Source of the DNA: Streptomyces yatensis
GTDB lineage: Bacteria > Actinomycetota > Actinomycetes > Streptomycetales > Streptomycetaceae
DNA length: 64,000 nucleotides
NCBI RefSeq assembly: GCF_018069625.1
Contig: NZ_CP072941.1
Location: forward strand, 9,424,001 to 9,488,000
Reading direction: 5' to 3'
Shown here piece after piece: positions 47,392-64,000 of this stretch. The notes under the pieces were generated by a model. The model saw nothing but the letters and a program-made list of their open reading frames with translations. It was not told the origin of the DNA and did no database searches. Both the position numbers and the translations under genes were made by a program. The number at the start of each line of letters is the position of its first letter. Position 1 is the first letter of the stretch.

Positions 47392-48554
47392 GAGCCCGCG
47401 AGCACGTCGGCGACGACGGCTGCCACGTCGTGCATCTGCTCCTCGCTGCCCAGCAGCACCCGGTGGTGCAGCCATACGCAGTCGCGGGTGAGCGCCTCGG
47501 AGTGCGGGCAGCGGCGGGCGAGTTCGTCCACCGTCAGATCCGGCGCCGCGATCTCCCAGAAGGCGTCCGTACGGTAGACCGCGCGGAAGCCGACGAACGC
47601 GGGCACCCCCCGCTCGATGAGCACGTCGACGATCTTCGCGCGGCGCTCCTCGGTGATGCCCGGCACCCGGAACATCGCCATGTAGTGCGGGTTGCGGTCA
47701 CCGCGGTCGTCGCGCGACTGCGGTACGACACCGGGGATCTCGGCGAGCAGCCGGCTCAGCACCGGCCAGCGCTGCTCACGCGTGGTGATCTGGTCCTCCA
47801 GACGGCCGAGTTGGGCGCGCAGCACCGACGCGGAGAACTCGTTCAGCCGGAAGTTGGAGCCCGAGGTGCGGTGGAAGTAGCCGCGGTCGGTGGGCGGGCG
47901 TCCGCAGCTGTGCCGGACGAAGCCCCGCTCGTACATCTCTGCGTCGGGGAAGAGCACGGCGCCGCCCTCACCGGCGGTCATCAGCTTCCCGTTCTGAAAA
48001 CTGAACGCGGCGACCGAGCCCAGCTCACCGACCTTCTTGCCGCGCCACTGAGCACCATGGGCGTGGGCCGCGTCCTGGATCAGCGGGACCCCGGAGTCGG
48101 CGGACAGTTTGCCCAGCGCGTCCATGTCGCACATCTGACCCGCCATGTGCACCGGCATGATCGCGCGGGTCCTCGGACCGATGGCCGCCTCGACCGCCGA
48201 TGGATCGATGCAGTAGGTGTCCGGGTCCACATCGACGGGAACGGCCACCGCGCCCAGGCGCTGCGCGGCCTGCGAGGACGAGATGAAGGTGAACGCGGGA
48301 ACGATCACCTCCGTGCCGGCGCCGATGCCGAGCACCTCGAGAGCGAGCTCCAGCGCATGCGTTCCGTTGGTGACCGCGAGGGCGTGCTCGCTGCCATGGG
48401 CCGCGGCGAACTCCGCCTCGAAGGCGTCGACCTCACTGCCGCCGATACGCCACCACTGCCCCTGATCCAGGGCCCGGATCAGGCCCTCGCGCTCCTCGTC
48501 GCCATACTGCGGCCATGCGGGCAGCTCGGATCCCAGGCGCACATCATTGCTCAT
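47388..48554 (-). CDS. rifK: 3-amino-5-hydroxybenzoate (AHBA) synthase (RifK type)
   Basis: This 388-residue PLP enzyme of the DegT/DnrJ/EryC1 aminotransferase superfamily is the hallmark gene of ansamycin and mitomycin clusters. The PLP-binding Lys is K190 in FSFQNGKLMTAGEGGA. Family features also seen are NGTHALELAL, PAFTFISSSQAAQRLGA and DAAHAHGA. It converts 5-amino-5-deoxy-3-dehydroshikimate to AHBA and, with RifL, acts as a transaminase earlier in the route. The ATG at 48554 follows AAGGGAG. It is transcribed away from rifJ, and the region between contains several dyads. Confidence 0.97.
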   Translation of the reverse strand: MSNDVRLGSELPAWPQYGDEEREGLIRALDQGQWWRIGGSEVDAFEAEFAAAHGSEHALAVTNGTHALELALEVLGIGAGTEVIVPAFTFISSSQAAQRLGAVAVPVDVDPDTYCIDPSAVEAAIGPRTRAIMPVHMAGQMCDMDALGKLSADSGVPLIQDAAHAHGAQWRGKKVGELGSVAAFSFQNGKLMTAGEGGAVLFPDAEMYERGFVRHSCGRPPTDRGYFHRTSGSNFRLNEFSASVLRAQLGRLEDQITTREQRWPVLSRLLAEIPGVVPQSRDDRGDRNPHYMAMFRVPGITEERRAKIVDVLIERGVPAFVGFRAVYRTDAFWEIAAPDLTVDELARRCPHSEALTRDCVWLHHRVLLGSEEQMHDVAAVVADVLAGS

Positions 48555-48570
48555 GATTTCCCTACTCCCT

Positions 48571-48617
48571 TAATGCGTTATGGAGGCAGGTCCGCGGCGG
48601 ACGCATTAGCACGCTAA
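48571..48617. promoter_or_regulatory. Nested dyads in the rifK/rifJ divergent promoter region
   Basis: Three inverted repeats overlap here: TAATGCG (48571-48577) with CGCATTA (48602-48608), GTCCGC-G-GCGGAC (48590-48602), and TTAGC-AC-GCTAA (48606-48617). They are 17-63 bp upstream of the AHBA synthase start. Such clustered dyads suggest an operator. The rest of the 226-bp gap, with TTGACC at 48681 and TATAAA at 48719, lacks normal promoter spacing. Confidence 0.5.
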
Positions 48618-48780
48618 CCGGCCGACGGGGCAAACGTCATTCCCCCTCAAGGCCCCCCTACAGCCCCCTTAAAAACGGAGTTGACCAAGCTCTCGGGCCG
48701 AGGCCAAGGGGGCCGTGCTATAAATGCACTTCCGTGATGAGCCGCTGTAATTCAGCCGACCCCGCATGGTGAGGTGTGCA

Positions 48781-49215
48781 TTGAGCAGGCTGTTGTTGGT
48801 GAACGGGCCGAATCTCGGCATACTCGGGAAGCGGCAGCCCGAGATCTACGGCACGGATACGCTGCAGGACATCGAGCGCTGGGTCGGAGAAGAGGTCGCG
48901 GAGCGCGGCTGGAAAGTGGATTCCTACCAGTTCGATGGCGAAGCGGAGATCATCCGCACCATTCAGGGGAACTACGACACGGTCGGCGCCATCATCAATC
49001 CGGCCGCGCTCATGATGGCCGGCTGGGGCCTTCGGGACGCATTGGCCAACTATCCGCGGCCCTGGATAGAAGTGCATCTGTCGAATGTCTGGGCCCGTGA
49101 GCAGTTCCGCCATGAGTCGGTGACGGGCCCGCTGGCCGCGGGCGTCATCTTCGGACTCGGCGCCCTGGGGTACCGGCTCGCCGCACGCGCCCTGCTCGAG
49201 AAGGTCCCGGACTGA
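48781..49215 (+). CDS. rifJ: Type II 3-dehydroquinate dehydratase-like aminodehydroquinate dehydratase (RifJ type)
   Basis: The protein has about 144 residues, like the type II dehydratases. The N-terminus MSRLLLVNGPNLGILGKR aligns if translation starts at TTG 48781, which has GTGAGG six bases upstream; an ATG at 48766 has no ribosome site. The catalytic Tyr is in PEIYG and the catalytic His in IEVHLSN. The usual NPGAYTHTS segment is NPAALMMAGW here, a change that may fit the amino substrate. It removes water from aminodehydroquinate to give aminodehydroshikimate, the AHBA synthase substrate. Confidence 0.92.
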   Translation: MSRLLLVNGPNLGILGKRQPEIYGTDTLQDIERWVGEEVAERGWKVDSYQFDGEAEIIRTIQGNYDTVGAIINPAALMMAGWGLRDALANYPRPWIEVHLSNVWAREQFRHESVTGPLAAGVIFGLGALGYRLAARALLEKVPD

Positions 49216-49286
49216 GCGGCCACTCCGCCGTCACTCCACCCCGCCGCCACCCCACACCGCCAAGGCCGACGAGCCGGGAGGCGACC

Positions 49287-50201
49287 ATCAGTCAGCTGGG
49301 AATCGACGTCGGCGGCACCAAAGTGGCGCTGCGCCTCGAACACGACGACCTGAGCATCAGCGAATCCTCCTTCCGCTGGGCCGAGCCGGACGGTACGGAC
49401 GCCATGATGTCCGTCGACCCCACCCGCGACCTGGATCTGCTGGCGCACCACGTCACGGAGTTATGCGCCGGAGCCCCCGGGCGGCTCACCGGCGTCGGGG
49501 TCGCGATGCCCGCCACCCTCGACGCCACCGGCACGGTCACCGCCTGGCCCGGCCGCCCCGGCTGGGCCGGAGTGGACCTGGGCGGCGCGCTGTCCGCGCT
49601 CTTCTCCGACGCCGAGGTGCGCTGCGCCGACGACGGCGATCTGGCCGCCCTCGCCGAAGCACACGAGGCCGGCTGCCCCGATCTGCTCTACCTCGGCGTC
49701 GGCACCGGGATCGGCGGTGGCATCGTGCTGAACGGAAAACCCGTCCCCGGCGTGGGCCGCGGCTCCTGCGAAGTCGGCCACCTGGTCGTGGACCGCGATG
49801 GACCGCTGTGCGACTGCGGCCGGCGCGGCTGTGTCCAGGCGGCGGCCTCGGGCCCGGCGACCCTGCGCCGGGCGACGCGGCGGCGGGGCGAGGAAGTGAC
49901 CTTCGCCGCGCTGCGCCAGGCCGTGGCCGACGGGAAGCCCTGGGCCGTGGCGTCGCTGCGGGAGAGCGGCAGGGCCCTGGCCGCGGCGGTGACCGGCGTA
50001 TGCGAACTGGTCCATCCCTCGCTCGTGTTGATCGGTGGAGGGTTCGCCGCGGCGATGCCGGAACTCGTGGCGATGGTGGCCGAGCGAACGGCCGCGCTGG
50101 GGCGCCCGGGACATCCGCTGCCACCGGTCCGGCCCGCGGAACTGGGCGGGCTGTCCTCACTGCACGGCGCCGTCCTGCTGGCCAGGGGGCTGCCGGACTG
50201 A
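49287..50201 (+). CDS. rifN: ROK-family sugar kinase of AHBA biosynthesis (RifN type, kanosamine kinase)
   Basis: This ROK kinase has the phosphate-binding DVGGTK motif, the DDGDLAALAEA active-site region and the ROK zinc signature (GHLVVDRDGPLCDCGRRGC). RifN homologues phosphorylate kanosamine at C6. No ATG, GTG or TTG lies in frame upstream of DVGGTK. The expected start is the ATC at 49287, six bases after a perfect GGGAGG, giving xSQLGIDVGGTK as in other family members. The first GTG (49317) would remove half of the phosphate motif. A TTA codon lies at 49461-49463. Its 3' end converges on rifG with 15 bp between. Confidence 0.92.
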   Translation: MSQLGIDVGGTKVALRLEHDDLSISESSFRWAEPDGTDAMMSVDPTRDLDLLAHHVTELCAGAPGRLTGVGVAMPATLDATGTVTAWPGRPGWAGVDLGGALSALFSDAEVRCADDGDLAALAEAHEAGCPDLLYLGVGTGIGGGIVLNGKPVPGVGRGSCEVGHLVVDRDGPLCDCGRRGCVQAAASGPATLRRATRRRGEEVTFAALRQAVADGKPWAVASLRESGRALAAAVTGVCELVHPSLVLIGGGFAAAMPELVAMVAERTAALGRPGHPLPPVRPAELGGLSSLHGAVLLARGLPD

Positions 50202-50216
50202 TCCGCCCGTGGGGTT

Positions 50217-51260
50217 CTACGGGTACGAGTCGGCCCGGTCCATCCCGGCCAGCGCCGTGGCGACCGTCTCCTCCGCGAGGCCCGAGACCAGTTCAGGACC
50301 GCCGGGACCGTCCAGGACGAAGGTGAGCCCGTCCGTCGCCTTCTTGTCCAGCCGCATCACCTCGATCAGACGCCCCGGATCCGCATCGGCGGGCAGCGCG
50401 AACGGCAGCCCGTACCCCCGCACCACCTCCAGATGCTCGGCCGCCCGCGCCTCGTCGATCCGGCCCAGGGCCAGCGCCAGACGCCCGGCGAAAACCGTGC
50501 CGATCGCCACCCCCTCACCGTGCCGCAGCCGGAAATCGGTCACGATTTCCAGCGCGTGGCCCAAGGTGTGGCCGTAGTTGAGCACATGACGCAGCCCGGA
50601 ATCCCGCTCATCCGCGGAGACCACCGACGCCTTCAGGGCCACGCTCGCCGCGATCTGCTCCGGCAGCGGCAGCCCGCGCAGATCACCGGCGCCGATGAAG
50701 TGGCAGCGGGCGATCTCCCCATATCCATTGAGCATTTCCGCCGCGGGCAGGGTCTCCAGATAGTCGGTGTCGCACAACACCGCGGACGGCTGCCAGAAGG
50801 CACCCACCAGATTCTTCCCCTCGGGGAGGTTCACCGCCGTCTTCCCGCCCACGCTGGCGTCCACCTGCGCCAGCAGCGAGGTCGGCAGATGCACCACGGG
50901 CACACCCCGGTGGTACAGGGCCGCCGCGAGACCCACGACATCGGTGGTGGTCCCGCCGCCGCAGGAGACGACCGCGTCCGACCGGGTCAGCCCGAAACGG
51001 ACGAACTCACGGCACAGCTCCTCCACCGTGGCCAGCGACTTGTCCGCCTCCCCGTCCCGGGCCCGCAGCACCACCGAGGGCACGCCCGGGTCGGGCAGCC
51101 AGCCGTCCGGCCGGGCGGACACCATCGCCACCCGCTGCGCACCGAGCCCCGCGATGACCCCGGCCAGCGCATGCCGGACACCCGGCCCGATGTCGACGGG
51201 ATAGGAACGCTCGCCGAGTTCCACCATGACCCGGGTATGCGGATGAGCCGACGCCGTCAT
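50217..51260 (-). CDS. rifG: Aminodehydroquinate synthase (RifG type, 3-dehydroquinate synthase family)
   Basis: This 347-residue protein has the dehydroquinate synthase NAD site (SCGGGTTTDVVGLAAALYHRG), the zinc-binding segment (NYGHTLGHALE and HGEGVAIG) and PTSLLAQVDASVGGKTAVN. In AHBA formation it cyclises aminoDAHP to aminodehydroquinate; RifJ takes the next step. I chose ATG 51260, with GGAGGGAC 12 bases upstream, over a longer in-frame start. The dedicated aminoDAHP synthase (RifH type) was not found in this window and may lie elsewhere. Confidence 0.94.
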   Translation of the reverse strand: MTASAHPHTRVMVELGERSYPVDIGPGVRHALAGVIAGLGAQRVAMVSARPDGWLPDPGVPSVVLRARDGEADKSLATVEELCREFVRFGLTRSDAVVSCGGGTTTDVVGLAAALYHRGVPVVHLPTSLLAQVDASVGGKTAVNLPEGKNLVGAFWQPSAVLCDTDYLETLPAAEMLNGYGEIARCHFIGAGDLRGLPLPEQIAASVALKASVVSADERDSGLRHVLNYGHTLGHALEIVTDFRLRHGEGVAIGTVFAGRLALALGRIDEARAAEHLEVVRGYGLPFALPADADPGRLIEVMRLDKKATDGLTFVLDGPGGPELVSGLAEETVATALAGMDRADSYP

Positions 51261-51330
51261 GCGTTGTCCGTCCCTCCATGGGCGATGACCGGGCATTCTC
51301 TATCGTCGAATGTAGTGCCTGGATCGAGGG

Positions 51331-52270: not shown

Positions 52271-53686
52271 TCAGGGAGCCTGCACGCGGCTTCTTCGACG
52301 GGACCGGCCCGGCCCGGGTGGTTCGGCGCCCGGGGTCACCCCCAGCTGGCTGAGCCGTTCGAAGTCGGCTGTGTCGATCTTCTCCAGGATCTCCAACTGC
52401 CGTGCCAGTGCCTCGGATTGCCCGTCGACATCGTCATGCCGCCGGAGCGAGGTCGCCGTGGTGATGTGGAACCGGGCCAGCGCCACCTTCAGGCTGCGGC
52501 TCTCCAGGATCATCCGGTAGATGGTCTCCTCCGCCAGCGCGTCCTGCACGGATCTGACCGGCCGGGTGAAGAACAGCGAGACGATCTGCCCCACACCGAG
52601 CGCGCCGAGCACGGCGGGGCTCTGCCACCCGATACGGCCCGGGAGGAAGACCCCGACGAGCGACAGCACAAGCGCGGTGAGCAGCAGACATGTGCCCAGC
52701 CCCAGCAGGAACTTGCTGGCGAAGCCGACCGTGTGCTGCGCCCGCCGGAGGCGCTCGGAGGTCTGGATGCGGTAGTCCCGCAGCCTGGCGTCCTCGTACG
52801 ACAGGATGCCCTGCTTGTCCTGGATGTACGAGGAGTAGCCCGCGAACTCCGCGTCCCCGCCACGGGACAGCCGCCGGTCGTCGTCCGGCCGGGAGCCCAG
52901 GAAACGGGCCAGCTCCGCCAGACCGGCCATCACCTCGGCGCGCAGCACCCGCTGGCAGAAGTCCAGGGCCGTCAGGTGGCGCTCCAGGGTTCTGCTGGCG
53001 GTGAGCGCGTCGGAGACCACGAGCTGCCGGACGTCGTAGCGGGAGCGGATACCGGTCAGCAGCAGCTGGACCTTGATGTCGGTGAGGACACCGATCACCA
53101 CGACATGGGTCGTCTCCTGCCGTCCGTCGCCCAGCAGACCGTCCAGCAGGGTCGTCAGCGGCGCCGGTTCGCCGAGGTCGGGACGTCCGCCGGAGCTGTG
53201 CTGGAAGTCGAAGAGGGTATTGGACCGCACGTGGTGGACGCGGAGCCTTCCGCCCCAGCCGTCCTCGCTGTCCGCCGGGGCGCACCGGTCCGGGGCCAGC
53301 AGATCCGTGAGCCCGTCGACGTACGCCGCTCCCCAGGTGCCGGCCTCGCAGTGGGCCCCGTACTGCCTGCGCTCCAGGTCGTACGCCTCTCCCGGGACAT
53401 GCCAGTCACGGATGTTGATCAGATGCAGGACCCCGTCCCCGTGGCCGCGTGTCCGGGAGCCGACGGTGGCGTCCAGGAAACGGGCCAGCGGCGAACGGTG
53501 CAGCTCCGCGTCGGACAGGACCCTGCGGTGGCCCTCCGTGCGGAGGGCCGCACCGCTCTCGCTGTCCAGCAGCAGCTTGGAGACCGCGCTGTCCGGCAGG
53601 GACAACTGGCAGTCCAGGTTGAGGAAGAAGTCGTTCTGCAGACACTGCGTGATGAGTATGTACTGCGCCGGTGTCGTCGGATCCAT
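52271..53686 (-). CDS. Isochorismatase-fold pseudo-hydrolase fused to two membrane helices
   Basis: This 471-residue protein starts with a cysteine-hydrolase (isochorismatase) fold: ILITQCLQNDFF carries the conserved Asp (D19), and VVVIGVLTDIKVQL is the strand where the nucleophilic Cys normally sits, but position 205 is Lys. The enzyme is therefore probably inactive or altered. After a helical linker come two membrane helices (about 322-346 and 357-374) and a cytoplasmic coiled tail. It is the last gene of a minus-strand operon, 46 bp after the previous stop. ATG 53686 has GGGGGTGG upstream. No known function fits; it may bind a small molecule or act as a membrane signalling element. Confidence 0.82.
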   Translation of the reverse strand: MDPTTPAQYILITQCLQNDFFLNLDCQLSLPDSAVSKLLLDSESGAALRTEGHRRVLSDAELHRSPLARFLDATVGSRTRGHGDGVLHLINIRDWHVPGEAYDLERRQYGAHCEAGTWGAAYVDGLTDLLAPDRCAPADSEDGWGGRLRVHHVRSNTLFDFQHSSGGRPDLGEPAPLTTLLDGLLGDGRQETTHVVVIGVLTDIKVQLLLTGIRSRYDVRQLVVSDALTASRTLERHLTALDFCQRVLRAEVMAGLAELARFLGSRPDDDRRLSRGGDAEFAGYSSYIQDKQGILSYEDARLRDYRIQTSERLRRAQHTVGFASKFLLGLGTCLLLTALVLSLVGVFLPGRIGWQSPAVLGALGVGQIVSLFFTRPVRSVQDALAEETIYRMILESRSLKVALARFHITTATSLRRHDDVDGQSEALARQLEILEKIDTADFERLSQLGVTPGAEPPGPGRSRRRSRVQAP

Positions 53687-53732
53687 CGCCACCCCCGTGG
53701 GTTGCCGGCTGCCTTCGGTGTGCCGCACGCGC

Positions 53733-55259
53733 TCAGTGCGGCAGCAGCGGCCACTGCCGGGACAGCCGCATGGCGGCCTCGGTCACCGCCGGATCGCCGG
53801 ACTCCATGGCCACCCCGTCCAGATAGGCGTGCGCCGCGGCCTCGTACAGGTCGTCGACCGCGTACAGCCGCGCCTCATGGGCCGCGCGGCGGGCACCCCC
53901 GCGGGCGCCCATGGTGGCCTCGGCCTCCTTGGCGCGCTCGGAGCCGGCCAGATCCGTCTCGATCTCCTGCTCCAGCTCCCGCAGCCGCTCGGCCGTGGTC
54001 CGGTACGCCGCGAGATACGGGTGTTCCTCGCCAAGGCCGATCAGGAAGGCGATACCGCCGGAGAGCAGCAGCAGCGCGACGAACATCCAGGACACGCTCT
54101 GCGGGTCCAGATGCAGCGACTCGATCAGGCTCGGCGGATTGCGCACACTGTCTCCGACGTCCGCGGCCACATCGGGCGGCAGATCCAGCGGAGGCTCCTC
54201 CCGGAACGCCACTTTGGCCCGCAGGTCGCCCAACGCCCAGGCGCCGTACGCCCATACGCCCAGCAGGGCGAGGGCGGGCAGGGCCGACAGCCGGACCGCG
54301 CCGGTGGCCGAGCGCCGCCGCAGTATCCAGCCCGCGATATGCGGGGCGAGGATCATCGCCACCGCCACGGCCACCATGAGGCTGTAGGAGAGCAGATCGG
54401 CGAAGCGCCCGACACCGTGCAGATTCTCGAACACCGAGTAGTAGACGGGCAGTTCGACCACGATCAGTGCGGCCAGCACCCCGAGCTTCATCCAGCGCGG
54501 CATACCGGGGCGGGCCGCCGCGCCCTCCCAGGCCGCTCTGGTGGACAGCGCCCGGTCGGCCGCGTCCGCCTCCGCCACCGGATCGTGCTCGGACACCGCC
54601 TGCCAGCCGGCGTGGCCACCGGCGGTCTGCGGCTCGTCCTCGCGCCGCGTGGCGCCCGGCCGCCCCGGGTCGGCGCCGTCGTTCCAGCCGGCGGGCATAC
54701 GGGCGCGCAGCCACCGGCGCTCGAACCCGCCCCGCACCGTGTCGCGGAAGGTCTGCCACCGGTCGGCCCGCCGCGCCAGCCGGTCCAACTGGGCGGTGGT
54801 GACCATCTGCTGCTGCTCCAGAGCGGCCCGTCGGCGGCCCGCCCGCTCCAGCCGCTCACCGGCGGCGGTGGCGGCCGCCCTGACCCGGCTCGCCTCCAGC
54901 GCGCCGTCCTCCTCGGCCCGCGCCTGCTCCTCGGCGAGCCGGTGCCTGACCCGGTCGCGCAGGCTGGCCAGCTCGGCGAAGTAGGGCACCCGGTCAGGGG
55001 TGGCCAGGACCCAGGGGTCGAAGACCTTCCCGGTGGCCGCCGACGCGCCGTGCTTGCGCGCCCGGTCCAGGAGCCAGGCGCTGTCCCCGGCCCGGATGAG
55101 ATCCGATGCGACGGGATCGGGCTGGGGCAGCGCGCCGTCCGGGAACCGCCGTGCGGCCGCCCGCCCTCCCCGGCGCCCGCGGTCGCCGTCGGCCCTGCGG
55201 CGGCGCAGCCTCAGCCGACGCGGCGCCTGGTCGTCACCGGCGATAGGTGGTGTCGACAT
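53733..55259 (-). CDS. Hypothetical four-helix membrane protein
   Basis: This 508-residue protein has an Arg-rich N-terminus, a long coiled-coil region (about residues 90-185), two membrane helices around 257-310, a further pair around 325-345 and 390-415, and a C-terminal helical tail (TTAERLRELEQEIETDLAG). I do not recognise the family. Its start overlaps the end of the lipoprotein gene by 26 bp, so it is translationally coupled to it. With the lipoprotein outside and coiled coils inside, it could transmit a signal across the membrane. Confidence 0.8.
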   Translation of the reverse strand: MSTPPIAGDDQAPRRLRLRRRRADGDRGRRGGRAAARRFPDGALPQPDPVASDLIRAGDSAWLLDRARKHGASAATGKVFDPWVLATPDRVPYFAELASLRDRVRHRLAEEQARAEEDGALEASRVRAAATAAGERLERAGRRRAALEQQQMVTTAQLDRLARRADRWQTFRDTVRGGFERRWLRARMPAGWNDGADPGRPGATRREDEPQTAGGHAGWQAVSEHDPVAEADAADRALSTRAAWEGAAARPGMPRWMKLGVLAALIVVELPVYYSVFENLHGVGRFADLLSYSLMVAVAVAMILAPHIAGWILRRRSATGAVRLSALPALALLGVWAYGAWALGDLRAKVAFREEPPLDLPPDVAADVGDSVRNPPSLIESLHLDPQSVSWMFVALLLLSGGIAFLIGLGEEHPYLAAYRTTAERLRELEQEIETDLAGSERAKEAEATMGARGGARRAAHEARLYAVDDLYEAAAHAYLDGVAMESGDPAVTEAAMRLSRQWPLLPH

Positions 55260-56013
55260 GTGCCTTCACCCTCCCCTCCAGAAGCTCCGTCCAGAAGGCG
55301 TTGAACCGCTCGTAGTGGGAGGTGTCGGTGTGGTACTTCATGCCGTAGCCCACCGGGTAGATGTCGGCGCCGGACAGCTTCGGCGTGCCGTGCGACTTGA
55401 GGAAGCCGTCGATGACGGTCCGGCGGCTCGTGGCGGTGGACAGGTCCTGCCGCCCCAGCCGGAAGTCGGTGTCGCCCTGGTCGAAGTCGCTCACCACGAG
55501 GACGTCGAACGAGGCGTCGTCGCCGGACGGCTTGGACAGCGCGATGCGCGACAGCCCCCCGAGCACATCGGAGCCGGGCTCCTCCTTCTGGGCGCAGCGC
55601 AGCAGCTTCAGGGCGTTGGAGAGGGCGACCGCGCGCATGGTGGTGCGGGCCCGCTCGCGGTCGGCGGTCTTCGAGGTGTCCGGGTCCAGGTCCAGTGGGC
55701 TGACCTGGCACTTGGACGCCTCGGACACCTTGGTGATGGGGGCGAAGGACGTCTTGCGGCACTTGTTGTCCGCAAGGAACTTCTGCAGGGTCGCCTTGAG
55801 CTTGGCCTCCGCGTCGAAGCCGGTCCGGGAGGCGGCGGCCGAGCCCGAGCCGTCGACCACGACGCCGCACGCACGGGAATAGCGTGACGGTTCGTCGGAG
55901 CCGCAGGCCGTGAGGGCGGACGCCAGGGCGAGCACCAGCGCGGCGGACAGGGCGCGCCGCCGGTTCCGGCGCCGGGCGCCCAACTGCTCCGGAGCGGGAC
56001 TGTGGACGGTCAT
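55234..56013 (-). CDS. Secreted lipoprotein with von Willebrand factor A-like fold
   Basis: This 259-residue protein has an Arg-rich N-terminus, a hydrophobic segment and a lipobox (ALTAC, lipid Cys37), so it should be anchored outside the membrane. Soon after comes VVVDGSGS (D54, S56, S58), a match to the metal-binding DxSxS of vWA domains, with later GSDVLGG and VVSDFDQ supplying the other metal-site positions. ATG 56013 overlaps the previous stop as ATGA, and its own end overlaps the next gene by 26 bp. A metal-dependent binding role is plausible; the ligand is unknown. Confidence 0.82.
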   Translation of the reverse strand: MTVHSPAPEQLGARRRNRRRALSAALVLALASALTACGSDEPSRYSRACGVVVDGSGSAAASRTGFDAEAKLKATLQKFLADNKCRKTSFAPITKVSEASKCQVSPLDLDPDTSKTADRERARTTMRAVALSNALKLLRCAQKEEPGSDVLGGLSRIALSKPSGDDASFDVLVVSDFDQGDTDFRLGRQDLSTATSRRTVIDGFLKSHGTPKLSGADIYPVGYGMKYHTDTSHYERFNAFWTELLEGRVKAHVDTTYRR

Positions 56014-56693
56014 CGCGCGGTCCTCCCGTCGACGCGGTCGGTGTTCTGCCGTTCGAGTATCTGCAGCGCCCGGGAGGTGGCCGTCCGGGCGCCGTCGTCG
56101 TCGGCCAGCAGCCAGACGTCGGGTTGCTGCCAGGACCGGTCCAGCTCCACCCGGCCCGGCAGCCAGTCCCCGGGCGGGCGCCGGGGGAGGCGGGAGAGCT
56201 GGGGGTGGGTCTCGCGCACCGCGTCCCAGTAGCAGGCGAGTCGCTGATTGGCCTGGTCGACGACGGCCTGGGCATGCGACCGGCAGCGATCCACGCTGGT
56301 GCGCCACTGGCCCACCCAGTGGCCGTACCGCGCGAGCGCGGCGGGCCGGGGGTCCTCGCGGACGTCGTACTGGGTGACGACGCGCACCGACTCGGCGCGC
56401 ACCCGGCTGAGCAGGGCGTGCTCGCGTCCGATGAGGGCGGAGCGCATCTGCTCGGTGGCCCGGCGGACGCCGGTCCGCACCTCCATCACATACGGCGTGA
56501 TGAGCAGCTCGGGAGCCGGTGGCTCGATGGGCGGCGGCATCTCGCCCTTCCGCTCCTCGGGCGGCTCCGGGAGCGGGATGCGCGGGACGCCGCGCGCGCC
56601 GTCGCGCTTGCCCCGCCAGCGGGCGGCGAAGCGGGCGGTACGGCCGAGCCTTCCCCGGCGCACCACCCCGTTGACACTGTCAGATGTGATCAT
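56010..56693 (-). CDS. Hypothetical basic protein, first gene of the minus-strand operon
   Basis: This 227-residue protein starts at ATG 56693 (MITSDSVNGVVRRGRLG). The N-terminal third is basic and Pro-rich; the rest is helical with many Arg and Gln (about 95-185) and no membrane helix. No known domain was recognised. The stop overlaps the start of the lipoprotein gene (ATGA), so it is the promoter-proximal cistron of a four-gene operon. Longer in-frame extensions upstream to 56960 look non-coding. Confidence 0.72.
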   Translation of the reverse strand: MITSDSVNGVVRRGRLGRTARFAARWRGKRDGARGVPRIPLPEPPEERKGEMPPPIEPPAPELLITPYVMEVRTGVRRATEQMRSALIGREHALLSRVRAESVRVVTQYDVREDPRPAALARYGHWVGQWRTSVDRCRSHAQAVVDQANQRLACYWDAVRETHPQLSRLPRRPPGDWLPGRVELDRSWQQPDVWLLADDDGARTATSRALQILERQNTDRVDGRTAR

Positions 56694-57016
56694 GGAAATG
56701 GATCCCCCGATTTCCCCGGTGCGCAATTGCCGCACCGGACAGCCGCATTTGCGGACAGCGGAATTCCGCTTTCTCCCGCAAACGGCTCGCAGTCGATGCC
56801 GATGACGCTGTCGATTCGATTCCTTGCCATACCGTATCGGTGAGGTCGTACCCGGGAATGCTCCCCATAGGGCCCGCTCCCGGAAACGCCCGGAAGTCGA
56901 CCGGAGAACGCCCTCGTCGATGCCTGACGCCGGGTCATACTGGAACGGTTCCGGGGCCACGCCTTTTTGATCATGGATCTCGGAAACACGACCTCGGGGG
57001 AATAGGAGATGGGTCG
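56694..57016. other. Divergent intergenic region
   Basis: These 323 bp separate two outward-facing operons and are less GC-rich than their surroundings. They must hold both promoters. I see A/T-rich patches near 56700-56710 and 56813-56835 and a CTTTTTGATCATG patch at about 56964-56976, but no promoter with convincing spacing. Confidence 0.6.
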
Positions 57017-57724
57017 GTGGAGAACGTCCCAGAGTGCGCGGAGCCCACGCTCCGGATCAGTCATACCCACTTCCCGGTGGAGACCCTGGGCCCGGGGCGG
57101 CGCCTGGGCATCTGGACCCAGGGCTGCGGCCTGGCCTGCGCCGGCTGTATGTCACGGCACACCTGGGATCCGCTCGGCGGCGCCTCCCGTACGGTCTCGT
57201 CCCTGCTCGGGCTCTGGCGCGAGGCGTTGGCGCGGGGCGCCGACGGGCTGACGGTCAGCGGCGGCGAGCCGCTCGACCAGCCCGCCGCTCTGGAGGCCCT
57301 GCTGGCCGGGGCGGTGCGGGCCCGTGCGGAGGCGACGGCACCGGGCGGCCCGGCGGCGGGCCGTGAGATCGACATCCTCCTCTACACGGGATACGAGCAG
57401 GAGGAAGTGGAGGGCGACGCGGCGCGCTCCGCCGCCGTCGGCCACGCGGATGCGCTGGTGACCGGGCGCTTCCGGGCGGCCGAGCCCACCGCCCTGGTGT
57501 GGCGCGGCTCGGCGAACCAGCGGCTGCGGCCGCGTACGGCGCGGGGGTGGGCGCGCTACCAGGAGCATCTGGCCCGGACGGAGAGCGGGCCGCGTCTGCA
57601 GATGGTCGAGGGGGAGGGCGATGTGCGGCTCTACGGAGTGCCGAGGCGGGGCGAACTGGCCGCGCTGGAGCGCCGGTTGCGGCGGGCGGGGATCACCCTC
57701 ACCGGTGCCAGCTGGCGCCCCTGA
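57017..57724 (+). CDS. Radical SAM / 4Fe-4S single-cluster protein (NrdG-like)
   Basis: This 235-residue protein has the radical SAM motif CGLACAGC (CxxxCxxC) followed by the SAM-binding SGGEPLDQP. It is as short as the NrdG-type activases and lacks extra cluster-binding domains. GTG 57017 has AGGAG upstream (57004-57008) and gives an N-terminus typical of the family. Such proteins are found beside AAA ATPase and vWA genes in actinobacteria, but their substrate is not known. It is transcribed away from the four-gene minus operon and toward the macro-domain gene. Confidence 0.88.
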   Translation: MENVPECAEPTLRISHTHFPVETLGPGRRLGIWTQGCGLACAGCMSRHTWDPLGGASRTVSSLLGLWREALARGADGLTVSGGEPLDQPAALEALLAGAVRARAEATAPGGPAAGREIDILLYTGYEQEEVEGDAARSAAVGHADALVTGRFRAAEPTALVWRGSANQRLRPRTARGWARYQEHLARTESGPRLQMVEGEGDVRLYGVPRRGELAALERRLRRAGITLTGASWRP

Positions 57725-57787
57725 GCGAGAGCGCCCGGCCGGACGGCACGGCGGGCGGCGGGCCCGGCGGGCGCGGCCACAGAGGGT

Positions 57788-57957
57788 CCGCGGCCTCGGT
57801 CGGCTGTGGTCACCGAGTGCCGCCGGTCTCGGTGGGTGGCGGTCACCGAGGGCCGAAGGTCTCGGTTGGTGGCGGTCGCACGGCCCTGAAGGTCTCGGTC
57901 GGTCGTGGTCGCACAACCCCGAAGGTCTCGGTCGGTGGTGGTCACAGCGCGCCGACG
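57788..57957. repeat. 33-bp minisatellite, five copies, between convergent genes
   Basis: The motif CTCGGT recurs at 57795, 57828, 57861, 57894 and 57927, always 33 bp apart; a diverged sixth unit (57960) lies inside the end of the macro-domain gene. The unit reads GAAGGTCTCGGTCGGTGGTG and then GTCGCAC plus spacer. The period is a multiple of three, so readings in all frames stay open. The repeat fills most of the gap between the radical SAM gene and the macro gene. Confidence 0.9.
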
Positions 57958-59108
57958 GCCTCGGCGATCTCCCGGCTGCGGACCACCAAGTGCACCCGCC
58001 AGCGGGCGTCCCGGGCGAGTTCGTCCCGGATCGCCCAGCGCAGCCAGGTCGCGCTGACCGCCGGTGCCAGACCACCCCGGCCCGCGCCGAGCAGCGGAAA
58101 GCAGATGGAGGACAGGGCGGGCTCGTACCGGTCGCGCTCCGCCCGCGCGAGCGCGAAGCACGCGCTGACCGCGCGGGCGATGCTCTCCGGGCGGACCTCG
58201 TACGTATCGTCCCGCGGGGTGGCGACCGCGGCGTGGTAGATCCGCCGGACGCCGCGCGCGGCGAGCGCTCCCGGTGCGGTGGGCACCACCGTGCCCGGCC
58301 GGATAGGCAGCCCCGGGCGGCCGTGGGCGCGCAGCCACCCGGCCAGTTCACGGGCCAGCACATCGTCCACGATCTCCCCGGCGGGGTCGCGTACGGCCGC
58401 TGCCAGGCGCAGCGCGCCGGACACGGTGGGGCGGAAGGTCTTGGACATCTCCAGATAGACGTTCTCCGAGGAGACCAGCACCTCGATGTCCCGCAGCAGT
58501 TCGATGGGCGAGACATGCAGGGTGAACGTGCTCCGCGCGTCCACCGGCACGCTGTCGACCCGCAGCGGAGGCTCCTGACCGGCCCGGCCACTCCGCGCGA
58601 TGGTGCTCTGCCCGGTCGGGCCCGGTCCGCCGGAGGGCTGTGGCCCGGTGCCCGGTCCGGGGCTCTGCCCCGCCGAGCCCGGTTTCCCGGGGAAGGGCGG
58701 AGGCTCCCGCAGGATGGTCAGCACGGCCTCGGTGAGTTGCTGGACGACCTGCGGTTCCTGCTGCTTTCGGAACCGCTCGGGGGTGACTCCGTATACGGCG
58801 GCGGCCATCTTGCGGCGGTCATGGGCGGGCGCGCCCCGGCGGTCGGGGAGCAGTCCGAAGGTGTGGGCCGCGGCCTGGCCGAGCAGATCCCGCTCGCCGA
58901 GGCGCCGTACCGCCTCCCTGAGCAGCGCCTCGATACCGGCCGGGGCGTCGTCGGAGCCATCGCAGAAGCCGCCCGCCACGGCCGCGGCACGCAGCGCCGG
59001 CCGATCGGTCCTGCGCAGATCCGGCAGTCCGGGTCTGCGTATGCCTTTCAGTTCTTCCAGGAGTTGATCGTATGTGGGCGAATTTGACGCAAATGGCTCC
59101 TGACTCAT
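57942..59108 (-). CDS. Divergent macro-domain protein with N-terminal helical domain
   Basis: This protein of about 388 residues has two parts. The first 130 residues form a helical domain that ends in a motif seen in other actinobacterial regulators (AAAVYGVTPERFRKQQEPQV). A Pro/Gly linker follows, then a macro fold: SSENVYLEMSKTF in place of the usual NAAN loop, LPIRPGTVVPT, RIYHAAV and SICFPLLGAGRGGLAP for the second ligand loop. Macro domains bind ADP-ribose or related nucleotides. The ATG at 59108 is preferred to a GTG at 59114. It faces away from the kinase gene and converges on the radical SAM gene. Confidence 0.82.
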   Translation of the reverse strand: MSQEPFASNSPTYDQLLEELKGIRRPGLPDLRRTDRPALRAAAVAGGFCDGSDDAPAGIEALLREAVRRLGERDLLGQAAAHTFGLLPDRRGAPAHDRRKMAAAVYGVTPERFRKQQEPQVVQQLTEAVLTILREPPPFPGKPGSAGQSPGPGTGPQPSGGPGPTGQSTIARSGRAGQEPPLRVDSVPVDARSTFTLHVSPIELLRDIEVLVSSENVYLEMSKTFRPTVSGALRLAAAVRDPAGEIVDDVLARELAGWLRAHGRPGLPIRPGTVVPTAPGALAARGVRRIYHAAVATPRDDTYEVRPESIARAVSACFALARAERDRYEPALSSICFPLLGAGRGGLAPAVSATWLRWAIRDELARDARWRVHLVVRSREIAEAVGAL

Positions 59109-59331
59109 GGTCACCAGGCTAGCGACCGGCCAGGAAAGAGGAAATCGTCCTCTCGGTGGCCGTGCGGTGCCGTGCCGCGGCGGGCTTTGTACCGCCGGTA
59201 ATTCACGCCGTGCTGGAACAGATTTCCGATTTCCCGGGTTCCGCTTTCTTGATCCACGGCCCGGCGGCCCCCTGCCGCCGCTCTCGCCGCCATTGAATCC
59301 GAACCGCCCACCCGTTCACGAGGTGACCTTT

Positions 59332-61920
59332 GTGACCCATCCGCACGAGCAGCCGCCCCCCACGGAATCCGAGGACGACGAGGACTACGGGGCCTACGGG
59401 GCTTACGGGGACGACGAGCGATACGCAGCCCACGGGGACCACGGATACCACCGGGACCAAGCGGAGCCCGAAGAGCGGCGCGCCCACGACGCCGGGCCGC
59501 CGCCCACCGAACACGAGGAGCCGCCTCCGTCGGCGGCGACCACGACGGTCGGGCCCACCGAACACGAGGAGCCGCCTCCGTCGGCGGCCGCCACGATGGC
59601 CGGGCCCACCGAGGACGAGCTCCTCTCGGCGGCGCCCGCGCAGGTCGCGCACGGGGGTCGCGACCTGCGCGGGGACACCGGAGCGCTGCCGGTCTCGCTG
59701 CGCGGCCGGTTCCGCCTGAGAGCCGTGCTGCGCCGCCCCGACCATCCGCACCAGGCGGCCGTCTACCGCGTCGAGGACGAGCGCGGCAGCCATATCCTCA
59801 AGTGGTACCACCGCGGCCACGCCCCGGACCGCCGGGTGTGGGAGCTGCTGCGGGACCGGCCGCGCCGGCACCTGACCCACTTCACCGAGACCGGCGACAC
59901 CGGGGCCGACGGCCATCCGTACGACCTGGCGCCCTCCTACGGCGAGACCGACCTGGCCGGATATCTGAGGGACAACCCCGGCCCGGCCGACCCCGTGCTC
60001 ATCCACAGCGTCGTACGGCAGCTGCACGAGGCCCTCACCACCCTGCACGAACTGAACATCGTCCACCGGGACATCAGCCCGGCCAACATCGTGCTCGGCA
60101 GCCTCGACCCGGCCGCCCCGGACCTCGTGCTCGTCGACTTCGCCGTCTCCGCCCACGAACCCGCCGAGCGCTACACCCGCGACGAGCGCTGGGTCGGCAC
60201 CGCCCTCTATATGTCCCCGCAGGCGTCGCTGCGCCACCAGCTGATCCACCCGCCCGCCGACTGGTGGTCGCTCGGCATGATCGTCGCCGAGATGGCCGGT
60301 GGGCGCCATCCCGTGCGGTTCACCGACAACGACTTCGTCCGGGAGGAGATCAGCTCCCGCGCCCCGGATCTGTCCCTGGTCACCGACCACCGGCTGCGGC
60401 TGCTGTGCATGGGGCTGCTCACCCGCGACCCCGACCACCGCTGGGGAACCGACGAGGTGGCGCAGTGGCTGGTGGGCGGCTCGCCACCGATCGCCCCCTG
60501 GGAGGCGGGCACGGCACCCGGCGCCTCGGACCCGGAAGACGCCCCGGGCATCGAGCCGTTCGCCTTCCTCGACGAGCACTACACCAGGCCGAAGCAGCTG
60601 GCCAGGGCGTTCAGCGAGAACTGGCGGCCCGCCCGGCAGCTACTCTCCCGGCGGCGCGGCCGGGGCGAATTCACCCGCTGGCTACGGCAGTTCGAGGGCG
60701 CACCGGACCGCGATGCCGGTGAACTGGCGGCGCTGCTGGACCTCCTGGAGCCGCAGCACCCCGCGGCTGGGCCACGTGAGCCGAAGCCGGTCACGATGGT
60801 GCGGCTGATCTCCTGGCTCGGCCCCACCCTCGACGCGTCCTACCGCGGGGTGCCGCTGGACCACGCGGGGCTGGGGGAGTTGCTGCGTGAGGCCGGGCGC
60901 GGCGATGAGTTCGCCCTCTCCGTCGTGGCGGACCTGCGGGACCACACCATCCTGCCGCTGCTGGACTCACGGCCCGGCGGCGATGGGCTCGCCGAGGTGC
61001 AGCAGCGCTGGCTGACGGCCCGCTCCCGCTGGCAGCACACCGTCGACGAGGTGCTCCACGAGTCGCCGTGGCTGCGCGACCGCCGCGCCGAGGTGCGCGC
61101 CGCCACCCGGCTCGACCGCTCCCGGCTCGCCGCCCTCCTGTCGCTCGCCGTCGCCCCCACCGCGCACCGGCGCAGGCTCCGGGAGCGCACCGCCCGCGTC
61201 CAGGCCTCGCTGCCACAACCGGTGGCCTGGTACGGACGGCTGGTGCGCGACCCCGACGATCTGGTGCGGCTGCAACTGGCCGAATGGCTGGGGGGATTCG
61301 CCGAGCAGGAGTCCTCGGAGACGCAGGGGCGGCTCGAGGGCGAGCGCGCCCTGCTGCGCCAGGAGCGGGACCTGGACGTGGCCACGCTGTGGGTGCGCAG
61401 ACAGGACATGCTGCCCACCCTCGGCTGGGCCCTCGGCGGAGCCGTCGCCTTCGTCTTCCCGTGGATCTTCGTGATCGGCCTGGGCGATCTGGTGGGATGG
61501 CCCGCCCAGCGCGCGGTGGTGACGGCGTGGATGCTGGCCGTCCCGGCGGCCGCCGCCGTCCTGGCCCTGGAGCTGTGGACGGCGTTCCGCATCGGCAGCC
61601 CCGGCTACCACCCGGACCGGTCCCTGGCCGGGCTGCTGATCGACCGTGCGCTGCCGGTGGCCCGGTTCATCCGCCGCCCCGGCTCCCGCTTCCCCGTCCA
61701 GGGCCTGCTGATCCTCCCGGTCATCGCCCTGTTGTGGGCCACCGTGGCCTACGCCCCCTGGGTGTGGCCGCTGGCCACGGTGGCCGTCCTCGTCTGGTGG
61801 ACCTGGCACCGGCTGCGGTGCTGGCGCCGCTACGTGGCCGAGCTGCGCGGCCGGGACGAACGGCACCGCCCCGGCTACCCGAGGGCGGCCGCCCCGCCGA
61901 CTCCAGGGAGCCTCACATGA
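59332..61920 (+). CDS. Membrane-anchored serine/threonine protein kinase
   Basis: This 862-residue protein begins with about 110 disordered acidic residues containing two 17-residue repeats (PTEHEEPPPSAA...). The kinase domain follows: Lys157 (ILKWYH), HRDISPANI (D247), DFA instead of DFG (D269), TALYMSPQA in the activation loop and DWWSLG. The acid, Asn and Lys are intact, so it should be active. The C-terminal half is helical and has four membrane helices in the last 180 residues. GTG 59332 has GAGGTG upstream. It overlaps the next gene as ATGA. Unlike common PknB kinases it has no extracellular PASTA repeats. Confidence 0.9.
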   Translation: MTHPHEQPPPTESEDDEDYGAYGAYGDDERYAAHGDHGYHRDQAEPEERRAHDAGPPPTEHEEPPPSAATTTVGPTEHEEPPPSAAATMAGPTEDELLSAAPAQVAHGGRDLRGDTGALPVSLRGRFRLRAVLRRPDHPHQAAVYRVEDERGSHILKWYHRGHAPDRRVWELLRDRPRRHLTHFTETGDTGADGHPYDLAPSYGETDLAGYLRDNPGPADPVLIHSVVRQLHEALTTLHELNIVHRDISPANIVLGSLDPAAPDLVLVDFAVSAHEPAERYTRDERWVGTALYMSPQASLRHQLIHPPADWWSLGMIVAEMAGGRHPVRFTDNDFVREEISSRAPDLSLVTDHRLRLLCMGLLTRDPDHRWGTDEVAQWLVGGSPPIAPWEAGTAPGASDPEDAPGIEPFAFLDEHYTRPKQLARAFSENWRPARQLLSRRRGRGEFTRWLRQFEGAPDRDAGELAALLDLLEPQHPAAGPREPKPVTMVRLISWLGPTLDASYRGVPLDHAGLGELLREAGRGDEFALSVVADLRDHTILPLLDSRPGGDGLAEVQQRWLTARSRWQHTVDEVLHESPWLRDRRAEVRAATRLDRSRLAALLSLAVAPTAHRRRLRERTARVQASLPQPVAWYGRLVRDPDDLVRLQLAEWLGGFAEQESSETQGRLEGERALLRQERDLDVATLWVRRQDMLPTLGWALGGAVAFVFPWIFVIGLGDLVGWPAQRAVVTAWMLAVPAAAAVLALELWTAFRIGSPGYHPDRSLAGLLIDRALPVARFIRRPGSRFPVQGLLILPVIALLWATVAYAPWVWPLATVAVLVWWTWHRLRCWRRYVAELRGRDERHRPGYPRAAAPPTPGSLT
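59504..59635 (+). repeat. 51-bp coding repeats in kinase N-terminus
   Basis: Two copies of a 51-bp unit encoding PTEHEEPPPSAA plus five residues are followed by a degenerate third copy (PTEDELLSAAP). They lie in the disordered leader of the kinase. Confidence 0.8.
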
Positions 61921-63572
61921 GTTCAGGACAGGCCATTGCCGGCATCGGCGATGTGATGCCCGATGTGTACTTCCCCCCGCCGCCGACCGTCGAGACCCTC
62001 CATCACACGGTCCCCGACACCGTCACCAACACCGTCCCGCACACCGGGGTGTCGCACGACGCGGTCCATGGCACCGGGCTGACGGACCACCTCGGCACCC
62101 AGGCCGGGCAGCACCTCGCCGACGCCGTGCACCAGACCACCGGCCATGCGCTGAACGCCGCCATGGACCAGCTGCACGACCTGATGGTGCCCGCCCTGAT
62201 CGGCCTCGGCTCGCTCAGCGGGGCGCTGCTCGTCGGCCGCGCCACCATGGCAGGGGCGCAGGTGCTCGCGGCCGCCGCCATCCGGGCCGCCGAGGACCAG
62301 GCCGCTTTGCGTCAGCGGCAGTTGGACGCCCGGCAGGCCGCCGCGTGCTGGCGGGACGCCGCCTTCGCGGCCGTCCGGGCCAACGCCCGCATCGACACCC
62401 TGCGCGCGCGGATACGGCGGGCCGGCCCCGACGGGCCACCGGAACCGCCCGACCTGCCACCGCCGTTGACCCTGGCGGGCAAGAAGCTGGACGAGGCATG
62501 GCGGCAACTGGCCGAGACCGACCACCGGTTGCGCCACGCGGAGGCCGCCTACGCACGGGCCACCATGGAGGCGGCCGCCCGCCCGGTGACCGGAGCGCAT
62601 CCCGAGCACACCGGCTGGCACGCGACCCTGCGCGCCCGCCGCCGCCGGGCGCTGGAGGCGTACGAGGAGGCCGCCACCGAAGCCGAGGCGCGCGGTGCGC
62701 TGCCGCAGCCGCCGCCCGCCGCCACCGTGGCCCCCACCGAGGAGGAGGTGCTGCGGCTGGGCGCGGACCTGCTGGCCATGCTTCCGCGGAATGTGTCGGC
62801 GGCCGACTACCGGCTGGTGGAGGAGAGGGTCACCGTCGCCGCGGAGGTCGCCGCCCGGCGCCCCGCCGCGGCCAAGCGCCATCTGCGGGAAGCCGCCGGG
62901 TTCGCCGAGCGGATGACCCGCGACGCCGAGCGGCGGCAGGAGACCGAGGAGTGGGCCGCCCAGCAGCTCGCCTTCCTCCGCGACGACCACCCCGGAACTC
63001 CCCGTGACGACCAGCCCGGCACCCCCGTTCCGCTGCCCGATGCCACGGCGGAGATCGCGGTCCTGGAGCGCTTTCTGTACCAGGGCGGGACGCTGGCGGA
63101 GGCCGAGCGTGTGCGCGTCGCGGCCCGCGTCGGCGAGCGGGTCGACGTGTATCAGCGGATGTACGCCACGGAGGTGATCCGCGCGGCGGTCCGGCGGTCG
63201 CAGCCCGAGACGGCCGGATGCACCACCTCCGGAGCGGTGCAGATCATCGACTGGACCCCGCCGGGCTGGGGGGAGGAGCACTGGCTCCGCGTCAGCGTGG
63301 AGGCCGGGGGCGCCGCCCGGGTCGCCACCATGCACCGCGAGCGCGACCCCGCCGAGGAGACCGACGACGATCTGGACCTCGACTGGCAGCGGTGCCACGA
63401 GGCCCCCGAGCATCTGGGGAAGCTGTGCGAGCTGACCGAACGGGCCGGGCTCAGCGTCCCGTTCGACTTCGGCGAGCTGCCCGCACGACCCGTCCGGCGC
63501 ATGGGGGACCGGCCCGCTCGGAACCACACCGGACCCAAGGCCCGCCACCGTGACCAGGAGAGGAAGTCATGA
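61917..63572 (+). CDS. Hypothetical coiled-coil protein with one membrane segment
   Basis: This 551-residue protein has a His/Thr-rich N-terminus (about residues 1-85), a hydrophobic segment (about 90-112, VPALIGLGSLSGALLVGRAT), then long Ala/Arg/Glu-rich coiled coils (115-400), and a C-terminal globular part with IIDWTPPGWGEEHWLRVSVE. No known domain was recognised. It is coupled by ATGA overlaps to the kinase upstream and the ATPase downstream, so the three products are probably made together and may form one complex or substrate chain. Confidence 0.82.
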   Translation: MSSGQAIAGIGDVMPDVYFPPPPTVETLHHTVPDTVTNTVPHTGVSHDAVHGTGLTDHLGTQAGQHLADAVHQTTGHALNAAMDQLHDLMVPALIGLGSLSGALLVGRATMAGAQVLAAAAIRAAEDQAALRQRQLDARQAAACWRDAAFAAVRANARIDTLRARIRRAGPDGPPEPPDLPPPLTLAGKKLDEAWRQLAETDHRLRHAEAAYARATMEAAARPVTGAHPEHTGWHATLRARRRRALEAYEEAATEAEARGALPQPPPAATVAPTEEEVLRLGADLLAMLPRNVSAADYRLVEERVTVAAEVAARRPAAAKRHLREAAGFAERMTRDAERRQETEEWAAQQLAFLRDDHPGTPRDDQPGTPVPLPDATAEIAVLERFLYQGGTLAEAERVRVAARVGERVDVYQRMYATEVIRAAVRRSQPETAGCTTSGAVQIIDWTPPGWGEEHWLRVSVEAGGAARVATMHRERDPAEETDDDLDLDWQRCHEAPEHLGKLCELTERAGLSVPFDFGELPARPVRRMGDRPARNHTGPKARHRDQERKS

Positions 63573-64000
63573 CCGAGCCGGTGACGTCCCCGGGCCGCGA
63601 CGACCGCAGGCTCCCGGCCTTCGCCGAGGAGCTGGTCGGCACGCTCGGCGTCCAGTCCCAGTACGTCCTGCACGGCAGCATCCGGGACATCCACCTCGTC
63701 CGCCACGACAAGGACCCCGACGAGGGCGGCCCCGAGGCCACGTACGACGCCCATCACACCCTCACCGAGGTCCTGTGGAACGCCCTGTGGCAGGAGGGCT
63801 ACGAGGCGCTGATCCGCTTCGACATCGCGGACGGCTTCACCGTCGTCGTGGGCCCTGCGGCCCAGGAGATCCGCGAGCTGCTGCACGGGCGGGACGCCGC
63901 CAGGCCCGGGCGCGCCCGGCGCGCCGACACCCCCGTCCACCTGGCCGACGCGGAGCGGACGCTGCGCGACATCATCACCGGCTGGAAGCAGCAGGGGCGG
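63569..64000 (+). CDS. Probable AAA-family ATPase, N-terminal part (runs off the window)
   Basis: Only the first 144 residues are present. The segment AFAEELVGTLGVQSQYVLHG, then SIRDIHL, matches the start of a group of bacterial AAA ATPases that begin with a Y-x-L-x-G-x-x-x-D element; the Walker motifs would be beyond the edge, so the assignment is provisional. ATG 63569 overlaps the previous stop as ATGA, making it the third gene of the kinase operon. A ring ATPase would supply the NTP-driven element of the locus. Confidence 0.7.
   Translation, partial: MTEPVTSPGRDDRRLPAFAEELVGTLGVQSQYVLHGSIRDIHLVRHDKDPDEGGPEATYDAHHTLTEVLWNALWQEGYEALIRFDIADGFTVVVGPAAQEIRELLHGRDAARPGRARRADTPVHLADAERTLRDIITGWKQQGR

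Follow-up and report, generated by a model that had tools for sequence, protein, structure and literature searches.

Which process could bring together a radical S-adenosylmethionine (SAM) enzyme, a membrane kinase, a surface lipoprotein and an AAA protein at one place on the chromosome of Streptomyces yatensis? The question was raised by an earlier note on a 64,000-nucleotide stretch of contig NZ_CP072941.1 (the window; bases 9424001-9488000 of this 10.36-Mb contig), in which nine adjacent genes, A to I, had been singled out at window positions 52271-64000. The locus is situated at ~9.476-9.495 Mb of the contig. Judged from sequence, it appears to be one form of a system that is patchily spread among actinobacteria, with the radical SAM enzyme E and the AAA protein I as its constant element. 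We consider it, with a probability of roughly 0.55, a putative defence system, i.e. a conflict system of actinobacteria, serving immunity or an abortive response, in which an alarm at the membrane would be passed on to effectors.

All nine genes were open frames with third-position GC of the coding type, and together with Pfam these data roughly bore out the domain assignments of the earlier note. The start codon given for each of A-I is one chosen among several possible. Because the window end cuts gene I, the sequence past position 64000 was examined as well. There the conserved unit continued to position 71290 (genes I-M). The borders 52271-64000 are thus not those of the unit, which takes in the FHA, RES/partner and CHAT genes and leaves A mostly outside. 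In window numbering, the genes are as follows.

A, 52271-53728, minus strand: isochorismatase-like protein with hydrophobic helices, apparently an accessory gene (weak Pfam match)
B, 53733-55259, minus strand: membrane protein with a long N-terminal part of cytoplasmic type (three hydrophobic stretches)
C, 55234-56013, minus strand: predicted vWA lipoprotein (LTAC lipobox by inspection; predicted model and PDB matches)
D, 56010-56540, minus strand: soluble protein (no Pfam family, fold not assigned)
E, 57017-57724, plus strand: radical SAM enzyme of the activase type (Fer4_12, E value 1.1e-21)
F, 57942-59108, minus strand: N-terminal domain of no recognised kind followed by a divergent macro domain (Pfam match below cut-off)
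G, 59323-61920, plus strand: membrane protein kinase of the Ser/Thr type with C-terminal hydrophobic helices (Pkinase, E value 8.4e-20)
H, 61917-63572, plus strand: protein of coiled-coil type with one hydrophobic helix (no Pfam family)
I, 63569-65638, plus strand, of which the window holds 63569-64000: ClpB-like double-ring AAA protein (AAA_2, E value 1.4e-46)
J, 65635-66219, plus strand, beyond the window: zinc-ribbon-like and FHA protein (FHA, E value 8.4e-11)
K, 66271-66897, minus strand, beyond the window: RES protein (PF08808, E value 2.9e-21)
L, 66924-67610, minus strand, beyond the window: partner of K (no family)
M, 67607-71290, minus strand, beyond the window: TPR-CHAT protease (PF12770, E value 6.6e-36 on the 797 residues scanned)

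Neighbouring genes overlapped by 26 nt (B/C) or 4 nt (C/D, G/H, H/I, I/J and L/M), and A/B and K/L were separated by 4 and 26 nt, respectively. G, H, I and J form a coupled run on one strand, with K, L and M placed head-on to J.

To what extent do these genes belong together? A profile made from six aligned E proteins was scanned against genome contigs, and the best 80 of 336 stretches were kept; a few of these loci share one genome and many are cut by contig ends. Profiles of each window gene were iterated on the 80 loci, and gene families were derived from frames of at least 70-80 residues. Loci of at least 20 kb were taken as full-length (57, namely 32 from Streptomyces and 25 from other genera). 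E was present in 80/80 loci by selection, and no full-length locus examined had E without I. Counted in all 80 loci, in the 57 full-length loci and in the 25 full-length loci outside Streptomyces, respectively, the other genes were found as follows: I in 66, 57 and 25; G in 70, 56 and 25; J in 58, 54 and 23; H in 57, 48 and 17; C in 64, 47 and 16; B in 63, 47 and 16; M in 49, 43 and 18; D in 55, 37 and 6; K in 42, 37 and 5; L in 40, 35 and 4; and F in 45, 32 and 1. A occurred in 11 of the 80 and 8 of the 57. The earlier note, which would have abandoned its set if the genes did not co-occur elsewhere, was right for B-I, which stand together in many actinobacterial genomes; A was the part that did not hold. 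The outer neighbours gave low counts: the upstream genes u1-u5 and u7 in 4-7 loci each, u6, d1, d2 and d4 in none, and d3, a regulator-like family by inspection, in 13/80.

The modules were arranged in several ways. Many Streptomyces had the order M> L> K> <B <C <D E> <F G> H> I> J>, and others carried K, L and M on the opposite side, as in the window. Several other genera showed B> C> G> H> I> J> B> E>, and a lean form of the system consisted of I> E> J> G>.

Among 295 Streptomyces genomes, E was found in 22 (threshold for E, 1e-40). D was present in 16, strong C matches occurred in the same 16, and all of these were among the 22 E-positive genomes, with D within 2.5 kb of E in each case. Ignoring kinship, the chance of 16 genomes falling within 22 of 295 is 7e-22. 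In the remaining six E-positive genomes, which lack C and D, I and G were beside E throughout, J and H were found in three and M in five. I was present in 21/21 of the other E-positive genomes, in two of which (G174, G295) E and I were on separate contigs. Six E-negative genomes gave weak C matches; no E, I or G was detected in the 20 kb around these, and they were therefore not counted as the system. Such patchy spread (22/295) and reshuffled modules are usual for conflict systems.

The pair of AAA and radical SAM genes was also encountered outside actinobacteria. The first-ring half of a Rhizobium relative of I, used as query, matched 18 plasmid records, of which 12 loci (H25, H26, H29-H34, H36, H39, H41, H42) were examined and six (H27, H28, H35, H37, H38, H40) were left out. 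In 12/12 loci, from Pseudomonadota and Bacillota, the AAA gene adjoined a radical SAM gene, which in one locus (L127) was split into two frames. A kinase part followed the pair in all six Rhizobium and Caballeronia loci; in L108 it lay within a 2086-residue kinase-DUF4011-SF1 helicase-MTES_1575 protein. L108 and L109 matched the PADLOC models PDC-S37, Hhe and MkoA. The Acinetobacter plasmid pNDM1_010055 (L122) carried genes for an MkoA-like helicase (E value 8.7e-96), a PIN protein and a hypothetical protein, followed by the AAA and radical SAM genes, and Photobacterium, Moellerella and Polaromonas had an annotated AAA-domain protein, a PIN protein and a hypothetical protein in positions matching L122. 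In Aristaeella (Bacillota), the row comprised DUF4011, kinase, zinc-ribbon FHA, radical SAM, AAA, phosphatase and a second kinase. I and E are thus the constant pair, and the remaining genes vary by lineage. In L122, the set was followed by another radical SAM gene and by a small AAA gene.

What kind of machine would this pair be? By family and by fold, I best matched ClpB/ClpC and not FtsH. In its first-ring half, GxxxxGK[ST] was absent from all 65 proteins long enough to judge, and the motifs of the second ring were retained in 65-66 of 66 loci. I is thus predicted to be an Hsp100-type, ClpB-like protein with two rings, of which the first is dead and the second intact. ClpB/Hsp100 disaggregases have two active rings, whereas I lacks the first-ring P-loop and is encoded among radical SAM and kinase genes. 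With I as query against 61 genomes, AAA matches above 340 bits were obtained in its own genome and in G033, G041, G043 and G049 (twice). In the five such loci besides its own, E was adjacent or within ~2.5 kb. Three more distant AAA relatives scored 213-241 bits; an E-like gene was near only one of them, L027 (32% identity, ~7 kb away), showing that the pairing is weaker outside the family. L027 and L026 (distant AAA relatives at 213-221 bits) also had frames nearby that by inspection look like Hsp70, GAP1 and TerY-type vWA proteins.

The ring architecture bears on the question of whether the locus is a divergent form of an already described MoxR-vWA ternary conflict system. In the FtsH class of these systems, as portrayed in parts of Kaur et al. 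2020 (PMC7159879), a vWA protein, an AAA protein with an inactive first and an active second domain and a radical SAM gene occur in multicellular actinobacteria, and all of this is common to our locus. In contrast, our locus has no MoxR, its AAA protein is ClpB-like rather than FtsH-like, and it adds a membrane kinase, FHA, RES and CHAT proteins. The only match to MoxR (PF07726) in this genome was at 7544399-7544788 (7.54 Mb), ~1.9 Mb away. Since this genome has no MoxR at the locus and the AAA protein is of the Hsp100 type, the locus was rejected as a published MoxR-vWA system, and we consider a divergent relationship very unlikely. In the main text of PMC7159879, the words CHAT and RES are absent, and Clp appears solely as a protease and within a reference.

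E carried the CxxxCxxC radical SAM motif in 80/80 loci, a feature of the activases NrdG and PflA, which it resembles; pyruvate formate-lyase activase was the nearest relative of solved structure. The best six named loci were all from Streptomyces (91-94% identity), including S. endocoffeicus, S. iranensis and S. rugosispiralis. The resemblance invites the idea that E is an ordinary glycyl radical enzyme activase whose position here is incidental. However, neither PF01228 (Gly_radical) nor PF13597 (NRDD) had a match in this genome, Gly_radical was matched in 4/21 and not in 17/21 of the other E carriers, and E is tightly linked to I. Classical activase work is therefore unlikely and was rejected for this genome, less firmly for the four carriers with a Gly_radical gene; we give an incidental activase almost no credence. 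Another proposal is that E modifies a small peptide, which I would unfold or export and which would itself be the effector. Parts of PMC7159879 support it by analogy, as Kaur et al. suggested a role in peptide maturation for a comparable radical SAM gene that accompanies some of the FtsH ternary systems. Among frames of at least 70-80 residues, no small gene was conspicuous by its conservation, which tells weakly against the proposal, and we regard it as improbable. Two further candidates were discarded. E of the window had no PADLOC match at 0.01 and was not taken as a viperin; an Acinetobacter relative matched viperin weakly (E value 2.5e-7), which we ascribe to general similarity within the superfamily. 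Carriage of E by phages was rejected as well: 1409 phage records matched, none over 80% of the query, and the 20 best of the 1409 were nrdG-type genes at 29% identity.

The remaining genes suggest what would act before and after the pair. Although a vWA domain in C was not called by Pfam, the predicted model (mean confidence, pLDDT, 85.7) matched almost exclusively vWA proteins among the PDB entries listed, at modest query TM-scores of ~0.3-0.46; the surface vWA-like lipoprotein of the earlier note was thus upheld. In L066, the C relative has a C-terminal OmpA domain. Two B-type matches, one per end of the run, were present in L066, L067, L074, L078, L083 and similar non-Streptomyces loci. The isochorismatase match of A was weak (E value 2.9e-4, 21.4 bits versus a cut-off of 27), and the positions of the catalytic Asp and Cys, as judged by inspection, carry other residues. 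This fits the 'dead hydrolase' of the earlier note: A is probably inactive as a hydrolase and, from its distribution, appears to be an accessory of a few lineages mostly outside the conserved unit.

In G, residues K160, D250, N255 and D272 were invariant in 22/22 aligned sequences, and the kinase thus has intact catalytic residues. The zinc ribbon of J was matched weakly (Pfam, E value 0.056) next to the FHA domain, and no Pfam family was recognised for H. Beside the lean form in L104, a PP2C phosphatase-like frame was noted by inspection (11199-12032; family in 4 loci), which would render a kinase signal reversible. The F profile matched macro domains in the PDB, and the Pfam macro match of F itself was just below cut-off (E value 4.9e-4, 20.5 bits versus 22). 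As the earlier note held, the locus combines components for sensing outside the cell and for ATP-driven remodelling with a membrane kinase and a macro-type protein.

As for effectors, a RES profile of K gave nothing against solved structures at an E value of 0.001. L was present in 35 of the 37 loci of at least 20 kb that have K. In common with RES toxin-antitoxin pairs, K combines a RES domain with a small neighbouring gene; unlike them, the two genes are embedded in a larger system, and no Pfam toxin-binding domain was recognised in L. A strict CHAT residue pattern found both residues of M in only 10/49 loci. The pattern being too strict, the longer M rows were aligned instead; of 41 aligned rows, window included and three evidently misaligned, 38 had the catalytic His and 39 the Cys.

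The sequences show which genes are present, that they are linked and that their active-site residues are intact; from this we deduce a working scheme of sensing, relay, unfolding or modification and effector release. An insult at the envelope or in the cell would be sensed through C, B and D. G would phosphorylate a partner, at which the FHA protein J would dock. I would unfold a target protein and E would modify the opened target. This modification might license CHAT proteolysis by M and free the RES protein K from L, whereupon K would destroy NAD; F could sense or clear an ADP-ribose-type product. The cell would then arrest growth or die before phage could spread.

Is this scheme preferable to a relay of the envelope? 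In such an envelope-stress or developmental relay, C would watch the wall, the kinase, FHA protein and unfoldase would remodel envelope or division proteins, and the RES and CHAT proteins would be regulators rather than killers. The lipoprotein with its vWA fold, the OmpA domain of its relative and the membrane kinase with an FHA protein are all in keeping with it. But only 22 carriers among 295 Streptomyces would be odd for a core relay, and the plasmid versions bear nuclease-type defence proteins and gave no match to C. We therefore regard the relay as rather unlikely. Patchiness, module shuffling, the RES and CHAT genes and the nuclease-bearing plasmid versions point to conflict rather than housekeeping, and the conflict system remains the reading that we favour. 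Several results weigh against it. An outward vWA lipoprotein with an OmpA-bearing relative is no less compatible with sensing of the envelope than with sensing of phage. PADLOC gave no match for A-F, H, J, K and L, and the matches of G and I were confined to the kinase and the AAA domain, respectively. A kinase profile found nothing in 5/12 plasmid loci (L122, L123, L125, L126 and L131, the last covered with 4-kb flanks). Thirteen members of L scanned at an E value of 1 had no relevant Pfam toxin-binding (antitoxin) match, and K, L, F and A appear from their distribution to be lineage-bound.

Does the set correspond to a described system? No published description of the gene set was found in the open-access literature (titles among the matches listed; subscription papers and preprints were outside the scope), in agreement with the earlier note. 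Its likeness to nucleoside triphosphate (NTP)-dependent conflict systems stood for the domain mix; it failed for the MoxR-vWA type, and the conflict function is deduced only. The nearest published theme found is nevertheless that of the NTP-dependent conflict systems in the consulted parts of Kaur et al. 2020 (PMC7159879). The GAP1-N2 GTPase systems of the kinase theme there share with the locus an active kinase with transmembrane helices, vWA and occurrence in actinobacteria, whereas the passages describing them (PMC7159879) do not include a radical SAM/ClpB pair. A GAP1-like signature (one sequence pattern, no profile) was not found in any frame of the 80 actinobacterial and 14 other loci. 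Mokosh, Hhe and PDC-S37 are represented by their helicase-nuclease type beside the AAA/radical-SAM pair in Pseudomonadota. No MkoA-type helicase was present in proteins A-J (Pfam) or in K, L and part of M, and G matched MkoA only in its kinase part. PDC-M37B (E value 1.3e-26, residues 395-515 of I, i.e. only part of the second ring) and Dodola DolB (E value 2.7e-14, residues 345-515) have a ClpB-like AAA in common with I; the comparison covered this domain.

On the other side of A, the window held matches to oxidoreductase, sugar-type aminotransferase, type II dehydroquinate dehydratase, ROK kinase and 3-dehydroquinate synthase families (46267-51296), which we read as the 3-amino-5-hydroxybenzoic acid (AHBA) starter-unit set of an ansamycin cluster. 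This set adjoined the conserved locus in only 4-5/80 loci. Very long modular frames filled 1-22 kb of the window.

What would the system mean for its carriers? We place the set with the conflict systems, and its core may deserve a name of its own. We suggest, tentatively and with more doubt than confidence, that an Hsp100 unfoldase that is half dead and a radical SAM enzyme of the activase type make up an immune core of a new kind, spread over three or more phyla. The unfoldase would open a target so that its backbone comes within reach of the radical SAM enzyme, and the radical formed, in the presence of oxygen, would break or permanently mark the protein. Sensors and killers would be lineage-specific: here the vWA lipoprotein and the kinase together with FHA, CHAT and RES proteins, elsewhere helicase-nucleases and PIN proteins. 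If this is true, a radical-chemistry enzyme and an unfolding machine would be an immune core common to bacterial phyla. In multicellular actinobacteria, a vWA sensor on the outside and a phospho-relay would be connected to it, along with effectors that are caspase-like or target NAD, and radical SAM chemistry would gain a protein-directed role in immunity. For phage work in Streptomyces, the locus provides a concrete, deletable gene set.

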